DNA of 64,000 nt, taken from the NCBI RefSeq assembly GCF_003063545.1, contig NZ_NESD01000001.1:744001-808000 (forward strand), written 5' to 3'. Position 1 is the first letter of the stretch, and each line of letters starts with the position of its first letter. The position numbers and the translations under genes were made by a program. This stretch comes from Limnohabitans sp. Jir61. GTDB lineage: Bacteria > Pseudomonadota > Gammaproteobacteria > Burkholderiales > Burkholderiaceae_C. This document shows positions 10,915 to 17,362 of this stretch, one piece after another. The notes under the pieces are model-generated. The model ran no database searches. It was given only the letters and a program-made list of their open reading frames with translations, and had not been told where the DNA came from.

Positions 10915-10942
10915 GCCCTAATGAGCTTTTGTTTTTTAGGGC
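10915..10942. terminator. Possible weak terminator between convergent genes
   Basis: A 7-bp inverted repeat GCCCTAA / TTAGGGC with a 14-base T-rich loop lies between the tarD-like gene and the convergent SOUL gene; the right arm overlaps the SOUL stop codon. The stem is short and no good U-run follows. Confidence 0.3.
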
Positions 10943-11550
10943 GCAGAAATTTCGATCATGATCTCGTTCCTTCTAAACATTGGTAGTGTCCAAGGTGGGT
11001 CATAGCGTGATAGCTGAGGCGTACCAATTGCTTTCAAATTGTGGCTGTTGATCCAATTGGTTGCTTCTCGTGTTTTAGATTGAACTCTAGAAACCGTATT
11101 GAAACCAGAGTACTTCAGGACAACAAAGTGTTTGCTTGGAACTTCTCTTAACTTCACAGCGCTATTCTTGGGCTTAGGAATGGACGCAAGCGTATATTGA
11201 CTTGGCATGACGAAATTGACACGCCATTGTTCAGCTGATTGCATGTTTAGCGCATCTTTCTGCGGTTGGACCGTGACCGGAGCTGTCATTGCAATCTTTG
11301 CATCTGTCACTGAATCTGCTGCTTGGTTGTTACCAAATATGAAATCAGCAATCAGTCGAAAGCCTTTGTTGGATGCCTCATCCATATCGCCTTCAACAAG
11401 AGTTTCAGCAATCAAAATGGGTGCGTATTGCCGAATTTCATAGGAGCCATCCGATCGTAGGACTTCGTATTTAGGTTCTTCAATTGCCATGACGTGTCCT
11501 GTCCATAAAAGTGCAAGTACCAGTCCAATAAGATGTTTGTGTTTTTTCAT
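10936..11550 (-). CDS. SOUL family heme-binding protein, exported
   Basis: 204 residues. ATG at 11550 gives a signal peptide (MKKHKHLIGLVLALLWTGHVMA) followed by the SOUL-family opening EEPKYEVLRSDGSYEIRQY; the longer ORF-track start (TTG 11577) would overlap the photolyase gene and spoil the signal. PVTVQP and FVMPSQYTL in the middle and the C-terminal YDPPWTLPMFRRNEIMIE block are typical of SOUL/HBP proteins, which bind heme or tetrapyrroles. Last gene of the minus operon that begins with the MerR regulator, 10 bases after the photolyase stop. A light- or tetrapyrrole-related role in the periplasm is inferred from context. Confidence 0.88.
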   Translation of the reverse strand: MKKHKHLIGLVLALLWTGHVMAIEEPKYEVLRSDGSYEIRQYAPILIAETLVEGDMDEASNKGFRLIADFIFGNNQAADSVTDAKIAMTAPVTVQPQKDALNMQSAEQWRVNFVMPSQYTLASIPKPKNSAVKLREVPSKHFVVLKYSGFNTVSRVQSKTREATNWINSHNLKAIGTPQLSRYDPPWTLPMFRRNEIMIEISAP

Positions 11551-11560
11551 ATTGAAGGTT

Positions 11561-13081
11561 CTAGAAATCAAAGCCAATTTGTTGCGTGTCGGCTGTTTGT
11601 GTCATTGATGCTTTTTTTCGTGAATGCAATGTTTTCCGTGAAGCGTGTTTCTCAATCACCGCTCTTTTACCGGCTTTAACTTCTGTCGTTTGTCGCCTTG
11701 CATGCAACTGCTGCTTGGATGTGCGTGTGGCAGTTGCTAAATCTACCAATGGTTGAGTGATCCCAATTGGATCAACCGAATCCATCTGGCAGTTTAGTGG
11801 CATATGCCATGGCTCAAATAGCCAAGTGTCTGGTACATCGCGCATATGTGGCAGCCAACGTTTCACAAACTGACCATGTGGATCATGGTCCTGTGCTTGT
11901 TTGATGGGGTTATATACACGCGTTGTATTGATTCCTGTGGTGCCAGATTGCATTTGTAACTGGCTCCAATGAATGCCCGGTTCATAATCTAAAAATTGTG
12001 TGGCTAGCCATTCGCCGACAGGACGCCAATGCAGCCACAAAGGGTATGCGGCGACCGAGACTAGCATGGCGCGCATGCGAAAGTTCAGCCAACCTGTTTC
12101 TCTTAACATGACCACGCAGGCATCGACCATGGGCCAACCTGTTCGCGCTTCTTTGAGGGCTTCGAAATAGTCTTGATTGAAATCTTTTTCGCGCAAGTCA
12201 TCGTATCCGCGATGCATATTGCGCCATTCAATTGCAGGCTCACTCTCAAGTTTTTGAATGAAATGGCAATGCCAATACAAGCGACTGACGAAGCCAGTTA
12301 GGCCCGCACGGTGTCGGTTGGCCTGAGGGGGGAGACCTGCAAGGTGTGCACGTGTTTGCTGTACCACTTCGCGCATGCTGAGGCAGCCAAATGCGAGGTA
12401 CGCAGACAAGCGAGAGCAAGCATCAGGTGCAGACAAAGGAGACGAGATGCCACCTCGATAACCAATGCTGCGCGCGTGCAAAAAGCTGTGCAGCGTATTC
12501 AATGCCAATTTGCGCCCGCCGCGTTGCCTCATGGGTGGGTTGTGTTGCAAATGTAACGGTGCAGACATGGCAAATGGCGCTGCCGTTGGTTGACCTAAAA
12601 AGGTGATGGAATCAATCGCATGAATGGGGGATGCCATGTGTCGTTCCCATGCGCTCTGCCATAAATTGCGATTTTTCAGTCCTCGCACGACGCCAAACTG
12701 TGCAAACTCTTGCCAAAGAACATCATGGGATTTGCACCATGCGGCAACTTTGATGTCGCGCGCATAGGTCAATCCATTGCCCGTTTCTTTGTGTGAATAA
12801 ATTTCTGAAAATGGTGCCTTTTGCCAAATTTTCGACAGAACTTCTGGGAGCTCGCCGGTATGAATTTCAACGCAACCTCCCATCGTTCGTAAATGCGTAT
12901 CCAACACCTCTAGAGACTCACGCACAAACTCAAAGTGTTGAAGTGCGCAATCGGGCTGCAACCAAAGTTCGGCTTCAATGACATAAATGCAACGCACCGG
13001 ACCACGCTTGGCTGCATGTGCGAGCGCTGCATGGTCGTGCCAACGTAAATCGCGTTTGAACCAAACTATGGAATAGCTCAT
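11561..13081 (-). CDS. Cryptochrome/deoxyribodipyrimidine photolyase family protein
   Basis: 506 residues. N-terminal photolyase antenna domain starts YSIVWFKRDLRWHDHAAL. The C-terminal FAD domain includes EPAIEWRNM, KARTGWPMVDACVVMLRETGWLNFRMRAM (conserved photolyase block), LDYEPGIHWSQLQMQSGTTGINTTRVYNPIKQ and DPHGQFVKRWLP. The final 50 residues are a basic Lys/Arg-rich tail (KKASMTQTADTQQ). It lacks the Cys cluster expected of FeS-BCP photolyases. Probable light-driven repair of pyrimidine dimers or blue-light sensing with FAD and a pterin or other antenna. Its neighbours include two pterin genes and a MerR regulator, which fits a light-response operon. Repair versus signalling cannot be decided here. 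Confidence 0.9.
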   Translation of the reverse strand: MSYSIVWFKRDLRWHDHAALAHAAKRGPVRCIYVIEAELWLQPDCALQHFEFVRESLEVLDTHLRTMGGCVEIHTGELPEVLSKIWQKAPFSEIYSHKETGNGLTYARDIKVAAWCKSHDVLWQEFAQFGVVRGLKNRNLWQSAWERHMASPIHAIDSITFLGQPTAAPFAMSAPLHLQHNPPMRQRGGRKLALNTLHSFLHARSIGYRGGISSPLSAPDACSRLSAYLAFGCLSMREVVQQTRAHLAGLPPQANRHRAGLTGFVSRLYWHCHFIQKLESEPAIEWRNMHRGYDDLREKDFNQDYFEALKEARTGWPMVDACVVMLRETGWLNFRMRAMLVSVAAYPLWLHWRPVGEWLATQFLDYEPGIHWSQLQMQSGTTGINTTRVYNPIKQAQDHDPHGQFVKRWLPHMRDVPDTWLFEPWHMPLNCQMDSVDPIGITQPLVDLATATRTSKQQLHARRQTTEVKAGKRAVIEKHASRKTLHSRKKASMTQTADTQQIGFDF

Positions 13082-13093
13082 GGGGTGATAGAT

Positions 13094-13444
13094 TTATGAA
13101 TTGTCAAAGTTGTCATGGATGACGCGTGGAGGAACTTGCATCACGTAGGCATCTGCAACGTAAGCTGGTCCTTTCATCAGCATGACAATGACGCACCCTA
13201 TGGCTAGAGTAAGAACGAGTGACCAGTGCAAGATGACAAGGCCCACCATGACATAAAAGAATTGCTCCATCGCTCGTGCGCTCTGTGTGCTTGCGTCTAG
13301 TCCATCGAAGCAATAGGTAAGAGCACTTGCTGCTAGTGGCAATAGGGTTCCCGTTGCCAAAATGAGAGGCAGTTTTTTCCAAATCGCCCACTCTAAGCCA
13401 GCAGGGGACCGCTGAAATCCTTCGAGTTTTTTAAAGTAATTCAT
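13094..13444 (-). CDS. Small membrane protein of unknown function
   Basis: 116 residues with two clear hydrophobic segments (LPLILATGTLLPLAASAL near 25-45 and FFYVMVGLVILHWSLVLTLAIGCVIVMLM near 62-90) and a soluble C-terminus ending PPRVIHDNFDNS. I do not recognise the family. It lies 11 bases after folB and 12 before the photolyase gene, so it is co-transcribed with them. The possible partner is the photolyase operon itself or the exported heme protein, but nothing in the sequence shows this. Confidence 0.75.
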   Translation of the reverse strand: MNYFKKLEGFQRSPAGLEWAIWKKLPLILATGTLLPLAASALTYCFDGLDASTQSARAMEQFFYVMVGLVILHWSLVLTLAIGCVIVMLMKGPAYVADAYVMQVPPRVIHDNFDNS

Positions 13445-13455
13445 GGGTGTCGCTT

Positions 13456-13869
13456 TTAGTTCTGGTGAGGCTTTGGCAAAGCCGAATTTCGTAGATGGTT
13501 GGTTGACGCCTCGTTGAGCAACAGCCGAACTCCAAGGGAGCCGCTGTCATTGTGAACAGGAGCTTTTCGTAGGCAGAGTTCTATCGTCTTGATTTCTGAA
13601 TACACAACACATGCGCAGGCAATGCGCGTCATCAGTCGTTCTTGCGTCTCATAGTGGCCATCTTGAGCCAGACGATCAATTTCTGCAATCAATGGGTCAT
13701 AGTCAAAAATATGCACCATTGCATCACTAGAGATCAATACTTGATTGGCATCAATTCCAAGTGTGATGTCTAAGAGATGAACTTTGGGTTTTGTGTCGTG
13801 AATCCCATATGTTCCAATTTGGGTTTTTAGCGATAGGTCACGTAACTCAATATAAGCTTGCGCATTCAT
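13456..13869 (-). CDS. folB: Dihydroneopterin aldolase (FolB family)
   Basis: 137-residue T-fold protein. YIELRDLSLKTQIGTYGIHDTKPKVHLLDITLGI near the N-terminus is the FolB opening (Gly-hairpin then the DI-L strand), and FDYDPLIAEIDRLAQDGHYETQERLMTRIA is the FolB helix-Glu motif; the final strand IELCLRKAPVHNDSGSLGV follows. Predicted to convert dihydroneopterin to 6-hydroxymethyl-dihydropterin and glycolaldehyde, or to act as an epimerase. Start overlaps the DUF2237 stop (ATGA). As part of a photolyase operon it may supply the pterin antenna or folate rather than being the only housekeeping copy. Confidence 0.85.
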   Translation of the reverse strand: MNAQAYIELRDLSLKTQIGTYGIHDTKPKVHLLDITLGIDANQVLISSDAMVHIFDYDPLIAEIDRLAQDGHYETQERLMTRIACACVVYSEIKTIELCLRKAPVHNDSGSLGVRLLLNEASTNHLRNSALPKPHQN

Positions 13870-14222
13870 GACTGAAGTTGCTCCAGCGTCACGTAATCAA
13901 GTGCACGGCTATGCGTACTTTCAAGCACAACTTTTGGCGCAACACCAGCCTCATATGCATGCTTCCATCGCAATGCACACAAGCACCATCGATCGCCAGC
14001 TTTCAGGCCAGCAAAACGATATTCAGGTCGTGGAGTTATCAGATCGTTTCCTTGGTGAAGAGAGAAATCTAAAAACGCTTGGGTGACCTTGGCGCAGATG
14101 ACATGACTACCTTGGTCCTGCATATCAGTGTTGCAGCATCCATCTCTGAAGTACCCAGTCAAAGGGGCGTATGAACATGGGATAAGGGCTGTCCCAAGAA
14201 CGTTTAAAGGCGTCCGATTCAT
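13866..14222 (-). CDS. DUF2237 family protein
   Basis: 118 residues matching the DUF2237 pattern: NVLGTALIPCSYAPLTGYFRDGCCNT at the N-terminus, then GSHVICAKVTQAFLDFS, GDRWCLCALRWKHAYEAG and ALDYVTLEQL at the C-terminus. Cys residues (CC, IC, CLC) and Gly-Asp-Arg-Trp are conserved in the family, which I recall as common beside photolyase and folate genes; no enzymatic role is established. Overlaps both the MerR stop and the folB start by four bases, so it sits in the tightest part of the operon. Confidence 0.85.
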   Translation of the reverse strand: MNRTPLNVLGTALIPCSYAPLTGYFRDGCCNTDMQDQGSHVICAKVTQAFLDFSLHQGNDLITPRPEYRFAGLKAGDRWCLCALRWKHAYEAGVAPKVVLESTHSRALDYVTLEQLQS

Positions 14223-15226
14223 GGTTCAACCTTTTTGATGGCTAATTTTTTATCCTCATGCAAGTCAATGCCTTCATGTTGTGCAATCTTTTCTAGTGCG
14301 TTTTCAAACAATGTTCGGGCAGAACCCGAAATAGAACGCAAATACGCATGGAGGTGAGCGTCGTTTGCGTTTTTGTTCAAACACTCTTGGCTGTATTCCT
14401 CAAAGCTGGCAAGTTGTGAAATCAATTCAGCCACGTGCCTGGGGCACTCGCACAACACATTGGTCGAGATGCCAGCCACACGTGTCAATGTCTCATCTGA
14501 GTATTTGCGACTTGAAATCACGCTGCCTGTTGTGCCAAATTCTTGCGCGCGAGCCTGATCCACAAACAAAACCGATTGAATAAGTTCGGCCAATTCGCTG
14601 TCCGAGATGGGCTCTCGCCTCACAATTAACCCTGAAAACTTCATCGCTTGCACAACCGCTTCGGGTGCAAAGTTATAAATGACGATAGTTTGCGCAAACT
14701 TGTGCTTTTGGATCAGTGCTTGAATGCTGGTGTGAACCTCGGCTTGGAGTGTGTTGACTTTGATCAACAGCACTTTCGATTGCTCAGACAGTGAAGCACT
14801 GGTGGCGGTCGCCAAGTCCATCAGTACGTCTGTCACTTTGATTCTGTTTTGTTGTAAACCAGATGCAAACTTCTTTGATTCGATACGGTTGGCCATGCTC
14901 AAGCCCACAACAGCCAATGTCAATGGCTCACCGGTGCTTGCATGTTTGTGTTGAGCGCTGTTTCGTAAATTGCTCATTTGACGCAATTGCGCCAAATCGA
15001 GATTGGCGATGGTGCTGATGGCATGTCCCTCGCTTGAGAGTTGCTTGAGCAGCATCGCTTTGGATACATCGTGCTCTTCAAATAAGCGTTGTTTTCCCTC
15101 GGTCTTGACGGGGCGAAAGGCGCCATAGCGCGTCTCCCAGATCCGTAAGGTTGAGACGGGAATTCCAGTCGTTTTTGATACCGCACCAATACGATAAAGT
15201 GCTGCGTTTGTAGGTTGCAGGGTCAT
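14219..15226 (-). CDS. MerR family transcriptional regulator, Rossmann plus helical C-terminus
   Basis: 335 residues. N-terminal winged helix of MerR type (YRIGAVSKTTGIPVSTLRIWETRYGAFRPVKTEGKQRLF). Residues near 100-220 look like a receiver- or B12-type Rossmann fold (LTLAVVGLSMANRI, VLLIKVNTLQ, TIVIYNFAPEAVVQAM), but no ExDxH cobalamin motif is visible. A helical C-terminal domain contains NVLCECPRHVAELISQLASFEEYSQEC. The order HTH-Rossmann-helical differs from CarH (HTH-helical-B12). First gene of the photolyase operon and divergent from an Rrf2 regulator. ATG 15226 is preferred to TTG 15229. Likely represses its own operon in the dark or without its ligand (inference from related photolyase-linked regulators). 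Confidence 0.85.
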   Translation of the reverse strand: MTLQPTNAALYRIGAVSKTTGIPVSTLRIWETRYGAFRPVKTEGKQRLFEEHDVSKAMLLKQLSSEGHAISTIANLDLAQLRQMSNLRNSAQHKHASTGEPLTLAVVGLSMANRIESKKFASGLQQNRIKVTDVLMDLATATSASLSEQSKVLLIKVNTLQAEVHTSIQALIQKHKFAQTIVIYNFAPEAVVQAMKFSGLIVRREPISDSELAELIQSVLFVDQARAQEFGTTGSVISSRKYSDETLTRVAGISTNVLCECPRHVAELISQLASFEEYSQECLNKNANDAHLHAYLRSISGSARTLFENALEKIAQHEGIDLHEDKKLAIKKVEP

Positions 15227-15240
15227 CAAAATGGCACCAA

Positions 15241-15262
15241 TGAGTAGTTGTTGAGTAGATAA
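15241..15262. repeat. Two tandem 11-bp direct repeats, candidate MerR operator
   Basis: TGAGTAGTTGT at 15241-15251 is followed immediately by TGAGTAGATAA at 15252-15262, sharing the first seven bases in exact 11-base register. They lie 15 bases upstream of the MerR start codon. CarH-type MerR regulators are known to bind direct repeats spaced by 11-12 bp, which makes this a good operator candidate. Confidence 0.6.
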
Positions 15263-15301
15263 TATGACGAAATATCGATTATTTGGTGATGGAAATACTT
15301 A

Positions 15302-15312
15302 TGAGTAGATAA
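15302..15312. repeat. Third copy of the TGAGTAGATAA repeat
   Basis: Exact copy of the 11-mer found at 15252-15262, 50 bases away and just upstream of the Rrf2 gene leader. Its position would let the same regulator act on both divergent promoters. Confidence 0.5.
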
Positions 15313-15324
15313 ATAACTCAAAAT

Positions 15325-15340
15325 CCTCCTCAACAGGAGG
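15325..15340 (+). promoter_or_regulatory. Hairpin covering the Rrf2 ribosome binding site
   Basis: CCTCCT CAAC AGGAGG forms a perfect 6-bp stem with a four-base loop. The right arm AGGAGG is the Shine-Dalgarno of the gene starting at 15347 (spacing six bases). In RNA the left arm would mask it, implying conditional translation. Confidence 0.6.
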
Positions 15341-15346
15341 TTTCTC

Positions 15347-15838
15347 ATGATTTCTAAAAAAACCATCAACGCCATTGAGTTGTGTGTATTGCTTGCTGGC
15401 AAGCAGGGGGAGGGCTATCTGACAACCACGGAACTTTCCCCACGGTTGGATTTGTCTATTTCGTATTTGGAAAACATCCTCAAGCCACTGAAAGACCACG
15501 GCTTTGTCTTGTCAATGAAAGGGCCGGGTGGCGGCTACATGATCAAAGGTGATGTGTCCTTGATCTCCATCTGGGATGTGGCCTGTGTATTTGAAAAGAC
15601 CTTGATGGTTGTTGAGAACACAGGCGAAGTTAACCTTCATGATTCGTATGAACTCGAACTTGAGCAGGTGGTGATGCGAACATTGAAAAGCTTCACCATC
15701 GCAGACTTTGCTGATTTTTCTTCTTCAGATGTCAAGTCATATACGGATGTGATTGGTCGGTTCAAGTTCAAACCGTTGCCTGTGCCGTTTATGCCCAAAG
15801 CACCCAACTCAGTTTTTCAACTGCACATGTCGCTTTGA
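15347..15838 (+). CDS. Rrf2 family transcriptional regulator
   Basis: 163 residues. The N-terminal winged helix follows the Rrf2 pattern: NAIELCVLLAGKQGEGYLTTTELSPRLDLSISYLENILKPLKDHGFVLSMKGPGGGY, with the family's GPGGGY wing. Only isolated Cys residues are present; the three-Cys FeS ligand cluster of IscR/NsrR is absent, so direct FeS sensing is unlikely. The C-terminal half (VPFMPKAPNSVFQLHM) is not familiar. First gene of the plus operon divergent from the MerR/photolyase operon. Its Shine-Dalgarno lies in a hairpin. Confidence 0.82.
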   Translation: MISKKTINAIELCVLLAGKQGEGYLTTTELSPRLDLSISYLENILKPLKDHGFVLSMKGPGGGYMIKGDVSLISIWDVACVFEKTLMVVENTGEVNLHDSYELELEQVVMRTLKSFTIADFADFSSSDVKSYTDVIGRFKFKPLPVPFMPKAPNSVFQLHMSL

Positions 15839-15845
15839 GAGCGTC

Positions 15846-16178
15846 ATGAGGTTTTCATACATGCTTTACAACAAAGATGGCCGTGGTGGTCGGGTTCCGC
15901 GTGGGCAAGCATGGCAGTGGATACATGATTTAGAAAACTTAGAGCATCTAGGCTCGATTTTGGATTGGATAGATCTGCGTGTATCAGTTGATCAATTGAG
16001 TTTATTGAATGTGTACCTGGACCATACAGAGATCACGTCTCCAAAGAACGCTGGAATTTCATTCGGTAGCAAGTCGCAAATTGTTTATAGCAGGGTAACC
16101 GTGCCTAATCGCGTGATCGATATGCGTTTGATTGCTTCCGACGAAATTAAGCGTCACGGAGACTCGCTATGCCATTGA
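15846..16178 (+). CDS. Protein of unknown function
   Basis: 110 residues from ATG 15846, seven bases after the Rrf2 stop. The longer ORF-track start overlaps Rrf2 in another frame and is rejected. The protein is soluble, with MRFSYMLYNKDGRGGRVPRGQAWQWIHDLENLEHLGSILDWIDLRV at the N-terminus and no recognisable motif or membrane segment. Its end overlaps the next gene by ten bases. I do not recognise the family; conservation next to TIGR03643-like genes would be the clue to seek. Confidence 0.7.
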   Translation: MRFSYMLYNKDGRGGRVPRGQAWQWIHDLENLEHLGSILDWIDLRVSVDQLSLLNVYLDHTEITSPKNAGISFGSKSQIVYSRVTVPNRVIDMRLIASDEIKRHGDSLCH

Positions 16179-16456
16179 AATTTCCACAACGACTCGCCAG
16201 TCTATCTGCTGGTGACATATCAGCAGTGATTCAAATGGCTTGGGAGGACAGAACATCCTTTGAGACCATCAAGGCACGCATGGCGCTCTCGGAGTCCGAT
16301 GTCATTCGACTTATGCGCCATGAACTCAACCCCAGTTCGTATCGCCTATGGCGCATGCGAATGAAGGGACGTGTCACCAAGCATCGAGCACTTAGAAGTT
16401 CTGAAATGAAATTTGATGATCGTACGGTAGCTGACCACCGCCGTGCTAATTGTTGA
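16169..16456 (+). CDS. TIGR03643/DUF2805-like protein
   Basis: 95 residues. SAGDISAVIQMAWEDRTSFETIKARMALSESDVIRLMRHELNPSSYRLWRMRMKGRVTKHRALR matches my recollection of the TIGR03643 (DUF2805) family: a short helix-turn-helix-like domain in which WEDRTxFxxI and SSxxxWRxRxxGRxxKH are conserved. The family is often encoded near cryptochrome/photolyase genes. Function unknown; DNA binding is plausible from the helical, Arg/Lys-rich pattern. Overlaps the preceding gene by ten bases. Confidence 0.78.
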   Translation: MPLKFPQRLASLSAGDISAVIQMAWEDRTSFETIKARMALSESDVIRLMRHELNPSSYRLWRMRMKGRVTKHRALRSSEMKFDDRTVADHRRANC

Positions 16457-16479: not shown

Positions 16480-16626
16480 ATGACAGAAGACCCAAGATGC
16501 TGCGGAACAGGGACTTGCATCATCAACGAGGATGGATTGTGTTGGTGCGGTCAAAAGTGGGATGGGGAGAAGATGTGTTTCCCTGAATCCAATGATGCCG
16601 ATGCCTCCGAGACGCCCCATGATTGA
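16480..16626 (+). CDS. 48-residue Cys-rich protein, too short for the ORF track
   Basis: ATG 16480 with GGAGA upstream opens a 48-codon frame: it begins MTEDPRCCGTGTCIIN and continues GLCWCGQKWDGEKMCF. Six Cys in the first 33 residues, in a CC-x4-C-x7-CxC-x9-C arrangement, suggest a small zinc or iron-sulfur protein. I recall similar CCGTGTCIIN...CWCGQxWDGxKMC proteins in Burkholderiales, without a known function. It starts 23 bases after the DUF2805-like gene and overlaps the next gene (ATG 16619, stop 16624-16626), which supports it as a real coupled gene. Confidence 0.75.
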   Translation: MTEDPRCCGTGTCIINEDGLCWCGQKWDGEKMCFPESNDADASETPHD

Positions 16627-17362
16627 GATAGCCCTTGCAACAAGTTGCGAGACTTTAGCTCAGAAGATATCTGCCGCTTTGTCAAGCTTTCAGGCCGTTT
16701 TATCACGCTATCAGTCTTTATCAGCCTTACCATCGGCGCTGGAGTTGAAAAGGTTTGACCTTATCGTCATTCATCATCCGAAGGAAGGTTGTGAGGATGG
16801 GACACATATCAGCTTTGAGCGAAATTTACCTAGCGCTACACCTGTTATCGCCATCACATCAGATAAACATCTTGAATGCTCTGTACAGCTACTCAACTCC
16901 GGCATTGACAGGTGTTTGCCTGCATCGTTTGACAAAAGCCATTTCTGTGCAGTGGTCCGTGCATTAACAAGACGAAGCCACGGTCTGATTTCATCCGTGA
17001 GTCAATATGGTGCACTGAGCTTCAGTCATGAAACAAAACAAACTTGGATTCATGACAAGCAGATTGCGCTTACAAAACGAGAGGCTCAGGTCTTAGACAT
17101 CTTGCTCAGAAGAGTAGGGCAGATTATTTCTAAAGTAGACATTATTAAAGTATTGGATTTCAACAACACAGATATCAATACCTCTGCTGTAGAGGTCTAT
17201 ATTCATCGTTTGCGTAAAAAAATCAAAAGCGAATATCTGCCGATACGCAACATCAAACGGTGTGGCTATTTTTTGAGGCGGTTTGATCCACCTAACGAGA
17301 GTGCAGCTTACTCGAATGCGCTGTCTTGCATAAGCAGGCCGCTCTCAGCTCAGATGCGCTGA
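16619..17362 (+). CDS. OmpR-type response regulator-like protein with degenerate receiver
   Basis: About 247 residues from ATG 16619, chosen because it overlaps the Cys-rich gene's stop and begins the first receiver strand (MIEIALATS). The receiver-like half lacks the acidic pair after strand 1, and the phospho-acceptor position reads FDLIVIHHPKEG, with His where Asp is expected. Conserved Thr/Ser (VIAITSD) and the C-terminal winged helix (IALTKREAQVLDILLRRVGQIISKVDII and AVEVYIHRLRKKI) are intact. It probably binds DNA without phosphorylation. No sensor kinase is nearby. It overlaps the convergent pterin dehydratase gene by 18 bases. Confidence 0.82.
   Translation: MIEIALATSCETLAQKISAALSSFQAVLSRYQSLSALPSALELKRFDLIVIHHPKEGCEDGTHISFERNLPSATPVIAITSDKHLECSVQLLNSGIDRCLPASFDKSHFCAVVRALTRRSHGLISSVSQYGALSFSHETKQTWIHDKQIALTKREAQVLDILLRRVGQIISKVDIIKVLDFNNTDINTSAVEVYIHRLRKKIKSEYLPIRNIKRCGYFLRRFDPPNESAAYSNALSCISRPLSAQMR

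Follow-up and report, generated by a model that had tools for sequence, protein, structure and literature searches.

Results

The window, that is, the whole 64,000-nucleotide stretch of Limnohabitans sp. Jir61 DNA that was analyzed and to which all coordinates refer, contains two divergent operons. On the minus strand, merR (14219 to 15226, with a possible alternative upstream TTG start at 15229) is followed by genes for a DUF2237 protein (13866 to 14222), a FolB-like dihydroneopterin aldolase (13456 to 13869), a predicted membrane protein of 116 residues (13094 to 13444), a cryptochrome/photolyase-family protein (11561 to 13081), and a SOUL heme-binding protein (10936 to 11577). On the plus strand, rrf2, which encodes an Rrf2-family regulator (15347 to 15838), heads an operon that continues with orf108 (15852 to 16178) and a gene for a DUF2805/TIGR03643 protein (16169 to 16456). 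The assignments are based on Pfam matches, joined by NCBIfam matches for the photolyase-family and DUF2805 proteins; the membrane protein was recognized from its sequence, and orf108 has no Pfam match. Downstream of the DUF2805 gene lies the gene of an OmpR/TctD-like protein (16622 to 17362), the Pfam match of which covers the C-terminal DNA-binding domain only. In several relatives (L048, L050, L052, L054, and L057), homologues of this protein are encoded close to the corresponding gene cluster.

Three copies of TGAGTAG lie between merR and rrf2, two of them in exact 11-bp register (15241 and 15252) and the third at 15302. The original prediction had described two adjacent 11-bp repeats and a third copy near the divergent gene, and this description holds: TGAGTAGTTGT (15241 to 15251) and TGAGTAGATAA (15252 to 15262) agree at 7/7 positions across TGAGTAG and at 8/11 across the full 11-mers, and TGAGTAGATAA recurs exactly at 15302 to 15312. 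What had been overlooked is an inverted fourth copy, CTCCTCAA, at 15326 to 15333, one mismatch away from CTACTCAA and exactly 17 bp past the third copy. Based on the alignments and searches described below, we define four half-sites. R1 (15240 to 15247, plus strand) reads ATGAGTAG in Jir61 and TTGAGTAG in relatives, while R2 (15251 to 15258, plus strand), 11 bp from R1, reads TTGAGTAG. R3 (15301 to 15308, plus strand), again ATGAGTAG, forms the left arm, and R4 (15326 to 15333, minus strand) the other arm, of a 33-bp inverted unit; R4 reads CTAC(T/G)CAA in relatives and is degenerate in the Jir61 genome. The pairing of CCTCCT with the rrf2 Shine-Dalgarno sequence AGGAGG (CCTCCT-CAAC-AGGAGG, 15325 to 15340) is possible because the half-site has changed to CTCCTCAA in Jir61, and such a stem could hide the rrf2 ribosome-binding site. 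Most relatives are unable to form it, and one other (L038) nearly can.

The arrangement is specific rather than the motif. When the 117-bp intergenic region was shuffled 20,000 times with dinucleotides preserved, an exact pair at lag 11 together with a third copy arose in 0.005% of the shuffles, versus about 9% for an exact 7-mer repeat at any lag from 8 to 20. Within Limnohabitans, the tandem pair TG(A/C)GTAG-N3-TTGNGTAGAT was present upstream of merR in all 24 close orthologues (at least 69% identity), R1 included; a lack of conservation upstream of orthologues, which the original prediction had named as grounds for refutation, was not observed. Across 20 aligned intergenic regions, the mean column information was 1.64, 1.61, 1.56, and 1.35 bits for R1, R2, R3, and R4, compared with 0.70 bits for the stretch between both units. 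A genus-wide search with the tandem pattern returned 29 sites in 27 of 84 genomes, compared with a single site for the reversed control pattern. For the inverted unit, the inter-arm distance was exactly 17 bp in 13/13 genus-wide matches, although the search pattern permitted other spacings.

In the Jir61 genome itself, the intergenic locus was the sole strong site in profile searches (E = 8e-10 and 2.5e-9), which returned nothing convincing in the way of a distant regulon. Loose tandem patterns likewise yielded 58 sites versus 91 for the reversed control, none of them convincing. The second-best match of the R2 profile (C1:1292277) falls within coding sequence and was set aside, and weak profile matches at three other loci (L359 to L361) were taken as chance. 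Elsewhere (L004 and L005), TGAGTAGWTRW was no commoner than its reversed control.

We also sampled merR homologues from approximately 200 genomes of the family in addition to all 84 genus genomes. In a motif-free analysis of self-similarity upstream of 83 nonredundant homologues (<60% identity), enrichment was found at lag 11 only (z = 15.8, with other lags at 3.9 or less), and this signal was missing both in merR coding DNA and in DNA 500 to 660 bp upstream, which served as negative controls. Likewise, an expectation-maximization model with a shared 8-bp half-site gave a tandem log-likelihood of 493.7 at lag 11 and no more than 128 at any other lag from 9 to 14. The resulting family consensus is TTGA(A/G)T(A/C)G. 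With a posterior above 0.9, the 11-bp pair was assigned to 80 of 100 merR upstream regions (near, 16/16; intermediate, 33/37; distant, 31/47), leaving 16 of the 47 most divergent regions under this threshold. A Caballeronia homologue has a 9/9 lag-11 repeat in the opposite orientation relative to merR, and a merR homologue on a Burkholderia anthina plasmid has no 11-bp repeat upstream. That the repeats might have arisen by chance or persist neutrally, without function, would agree with the frequency of TGAGTAG by itself, which at 6 sites in the window versus 3.0 expected is neither rare nor clearly overrepresented. This explanation can be dismissed for practical purposes because of the conservation, and the lag specificity, the negative controls, and the copies at relocated genes (see below) speak against it as well.

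The half-sites lie close to putative promoter elements. In the wider family, ATTAT or ATAAT frequently comes after the second repeat and is likely the −10 box of merR read on the other strand; in Jir61, the corresponding TATTAT occupies 15259 to 15264 on the minus strand, directly adjoining R2. For rrf2, the candidate −10 box is CAAAAT (15319 to 15324, plus strand), of which AAAAT is invariant in 20 aligned copies and which lies one base from R4. A consensus −35 element was looked for at both promoters and not found. Might the conserved blocks then simply form the core of promoters read by an alternative sigma factor? The missing σ70 −35 box and the conservation of the −10 flank, visible in the alignment, could be read in that way, but strict 11-bp tandem copies combined with an inverted pair are unlike the form of a sigma factor promoter, and each of R2 and R4 is located on the downstream side of its −10-like box, which makes this reading very improbable.

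A further line of evidence comes from genomes in which members of the two operons have been relocated. An rrf2 gene unlinked from merR carries its own complete four-element module in two genomes (G231 at L261 and G236 at L044). A third (G202) has a second full module between orf108 and a DUF2237-SOUL-folB group (L260). In G222 and G185, respectively, an unlinked orf108-DUF2805 pair (L355) and an unlinked DUF2805 gene (L357) each have their own tandem pair, and in G264 the membrane protein and photolyase-type genes are preceded by another operator copy (L356). In Jir61, all of the genes found relocated elsewhere sit in the two divergent operons and share one operator site. The repeated breakup of the same two operons across Limnohabitans genomes, with fragments that keep the operator, amounts to a natural experiment on regulon cohesion.

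These arrangements also bear on which of the two regulators binds the repeats. Rrf2 proteins are dimers that bind dyads, and Rrf2 rather than MerR might bind the R3-R4 dyad at the rrf2 promoter and control merR through R1-R2. The unlinked rrf2 genes with a full module and the divergent position of rrf2 relative to merR in many genus members would suit this. However, rrf2 orthologues are missing from 20 distant genomes that had been selected for their merR (IscR-like matches of at most 47 bits), and most of these genomes keep the 11-bp repeats at merR; the repeats are also kept in relatives without an adjacent rrf2 (L008, L066, L079, and L086), whereas an rrf2-like gene in a genome with no merR match (G209, at L060) lacks them. 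Judged from these comparisons, the repeats go with merR and not with rrf2, merR being the common partner, and their tandem geometry matches the LitR/CarH family. We therefore consider Rrf2 as the binder quite unlikely. A mixed operator, in which the tandem pair is bound by MerR and the R3-R4 dyad by Rrf2, and each regulator senses a different signal at its own promoter, is an unlikely arrangement too: the two geometries do differ (11-bp direct versus 33-bp inverted), and Rrf2 is the obvious candidate for second-tier control, but both units are built from the same half-site, and the dyad also occurs at orf108/DUF2237 away from rrf2 (L260).

The candidate binder has the N-terminal helix-turn-helix of LitR/CarH-type MerR proteins (Pfam MerR_1), the nearest solved structures being LitR, CarH, and CarA. 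Its best NCBIfam match is CarH, covering the helix-turn-helix part only with a score far under the cutoff. In an AlphaFold2 model (mean pLDDT, 86.5), the helix-turn-helix is followed by a Rossmann-like middle part and, at the C terminus, by a helical hairpin; Foldseek ranked CarH at the top, with low TM-scores. Neither this protein nor any of 30 relatives has a Pfam match to a B12-binding domain, and MerR contains no Wx9EH motif (W.{9}EH) and no H..G motif with the ligating His, its single Trp being at position 30. Because the B12-binding domain, the Wx9EH motif, and the ligating His motif are missing, we rejected its identification as CarH (class I LitR). The C-terminal 83 residues (240 to 322; window 14261 to 14509) have the pattern CxC..H..C..H, with C259, C261, H264, C282, and H293 invariant, and no convincing relative of this domain was found in Pfam, among PDB sequences, or among PDB folds, where a search with the domain alone gave nothing significant. 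The hairpin is predicted confidently, and the five invariant residues may form a site for a metal, an Fe-S cluster, or a chromophore. The Jir61 genome encodes one protein with such a domain. Homologues of MerR on Burkholderia plasmids show 33% identity over 93% of the query, and those on Burkholderia and Caballeronia replicons are encoded near photolyase or folE genes.

Discussion

Taken together, the conservation, the 11-bp periodicity upstream of divergent merR homologues, and the copies at relocated genes of both operons point strongly to R1-R4 as a candidate MerR operator serving both transcription units, as originally predicted. Quite probably, judging from sequence comparison, this is the operator of the adjacent, B12-free class III LitR-like MerR, which would serve its own and the divergent operon.

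The same prediction had called the regulator CarH-type, which is true of the DNA-binding domain, nearest to that of CarH, LitR, and CarA, but not of the remainder of the protein. The operators of CarH consist of tandem 11-bp repeats (PMC9304148), and CarH of Thermus thermophilus, Bacillus megaterium, and myxobacteria, a MerR-type binder with a DNA-binding domain closely related to that of the Limnohabitans protein, uses the same head-to-tail direct repeats over promoter elements (PMC9304148, PMC8156234). The predicted likeness to CarH direct repeats thus stands for the spacing, whereas half-site sequence and copy number differ: CarH recognizes nnnnTnnACAn in three or four tandem copies, while we find TTGAGTAG, reverse complement CTACTCAA (TnnTCA), within the family consensus, in two tandem copies accompanied by a 33-bp inverted unit. 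In addition, CarH has a B12 domain, which the Limnohabitans MerR lacks.

Class II LitR is a parallel in part. The Pseudomonas proteins PplR1 and PmlR2 are likewise B12 independent and regulate photolyase, cryptochrome-like, and folate-pathway genes as well as pplR1 (PMC9758184). They bind T(G/A)TACA-N12-TGTA(C/T)A and keep a four-helix-bundle domain, and neither feature was found in Jir61, where 15230 to 15346 contains no TGTACA-type pair of the TGTACA-N12-TGTACA kind. The class III protein of Burkholderia multivorans (Sumi et al. 2018, as cited in PMC9758184 and PMC6739363) is a closer parallel. The class is described as Burkholderia-type, with a C terminus unlike known domains and light-dependent absorption (PMC9758184), and as having a chromophore other than B12 (PMC6739363). 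The Limnohabitans MerR is likewise a betaproteobacterial LitR/CarH relative whose C terminus resembles no known domain, and it fits class III, compared by description only, as a LitR-like member.

In the mechanism we propose, MerR subunits would bind half-sites of the TTGAGTAG type, arranged head to tail at R1-R2 and paired at the 33-bp R3-R4 unit. Since the −10-like box of merR is immediately followed by R2 and that of rrf2 by R4, MerR at these sites would keep transcription from starting at either of the divergent promoters. The merR-DUF2237-folB-membrane protein-photolyase type-SOUL operon would thereby be autoregulated, and rrf2-orf108-DUF2805 would come under the same control. If it behaves like other LitR/CarH proteins, the repressor would be released by light or photo-oxidative stress. 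We infer binding of MerR to R1-R4 with more assurance than repression, as opposed to activation, or light as the signal. Occupancy of half-sites at the two likely start sites would suit repression of the kind known from CarH and class II LitR systems, and release by light is suggested by the protein family and by a predicted regulon comprising photolyase-type, FolB-like, SOUL, and DUF2237 proteins. Conversely, activation or the use of another sigma factor may be at work, as no −35 consensus was found at either promoter.

While the tandem 11-bp operators of CarH are already known (PMC9304148), the half-site code, the 33-bp inverted unit, the tie to a B12-free LitR, and the regulon predicted from relocated genes appear to be new. 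We found no report of an operator for a class III LitR in a literature search that was incomplete and did not include the original 2018 B. multivorans paper. Whether all of this belongs together, as a B12-free LitR class with a previously undescribed Cys/His domain for light or redox sensing that kept the 11-bp geometry of CarH, changed the half-site, gained a 33-bp unit, and has an operator traveling with its regulon genes, seems to us evenly balanced.

In conclusion, our analysis gives a class III LitR-like regulator, of a class described as photosensors, a precise candidate operator with its half-site code, and the invariant Cys/His residues offer a defined set for mutation. The predicted regulon of these abundant freshwater bacteria (photolyase type, FolB-like, SOUL, DUF2237, Rrf2, orf108, and DUF2805) was derived objectively. 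If the operator does accompany every gene of the regulon, genomes of Comamonadaceae may allow their light regulon, with Rrf2 as a probable second tier, to be read off directly. More generally, our findings suggest that the tandem 11-bp geometry of the operator belongs to the DNA-binding domain of LitR/CarH proteins and is independent of B12-driven tetramers.
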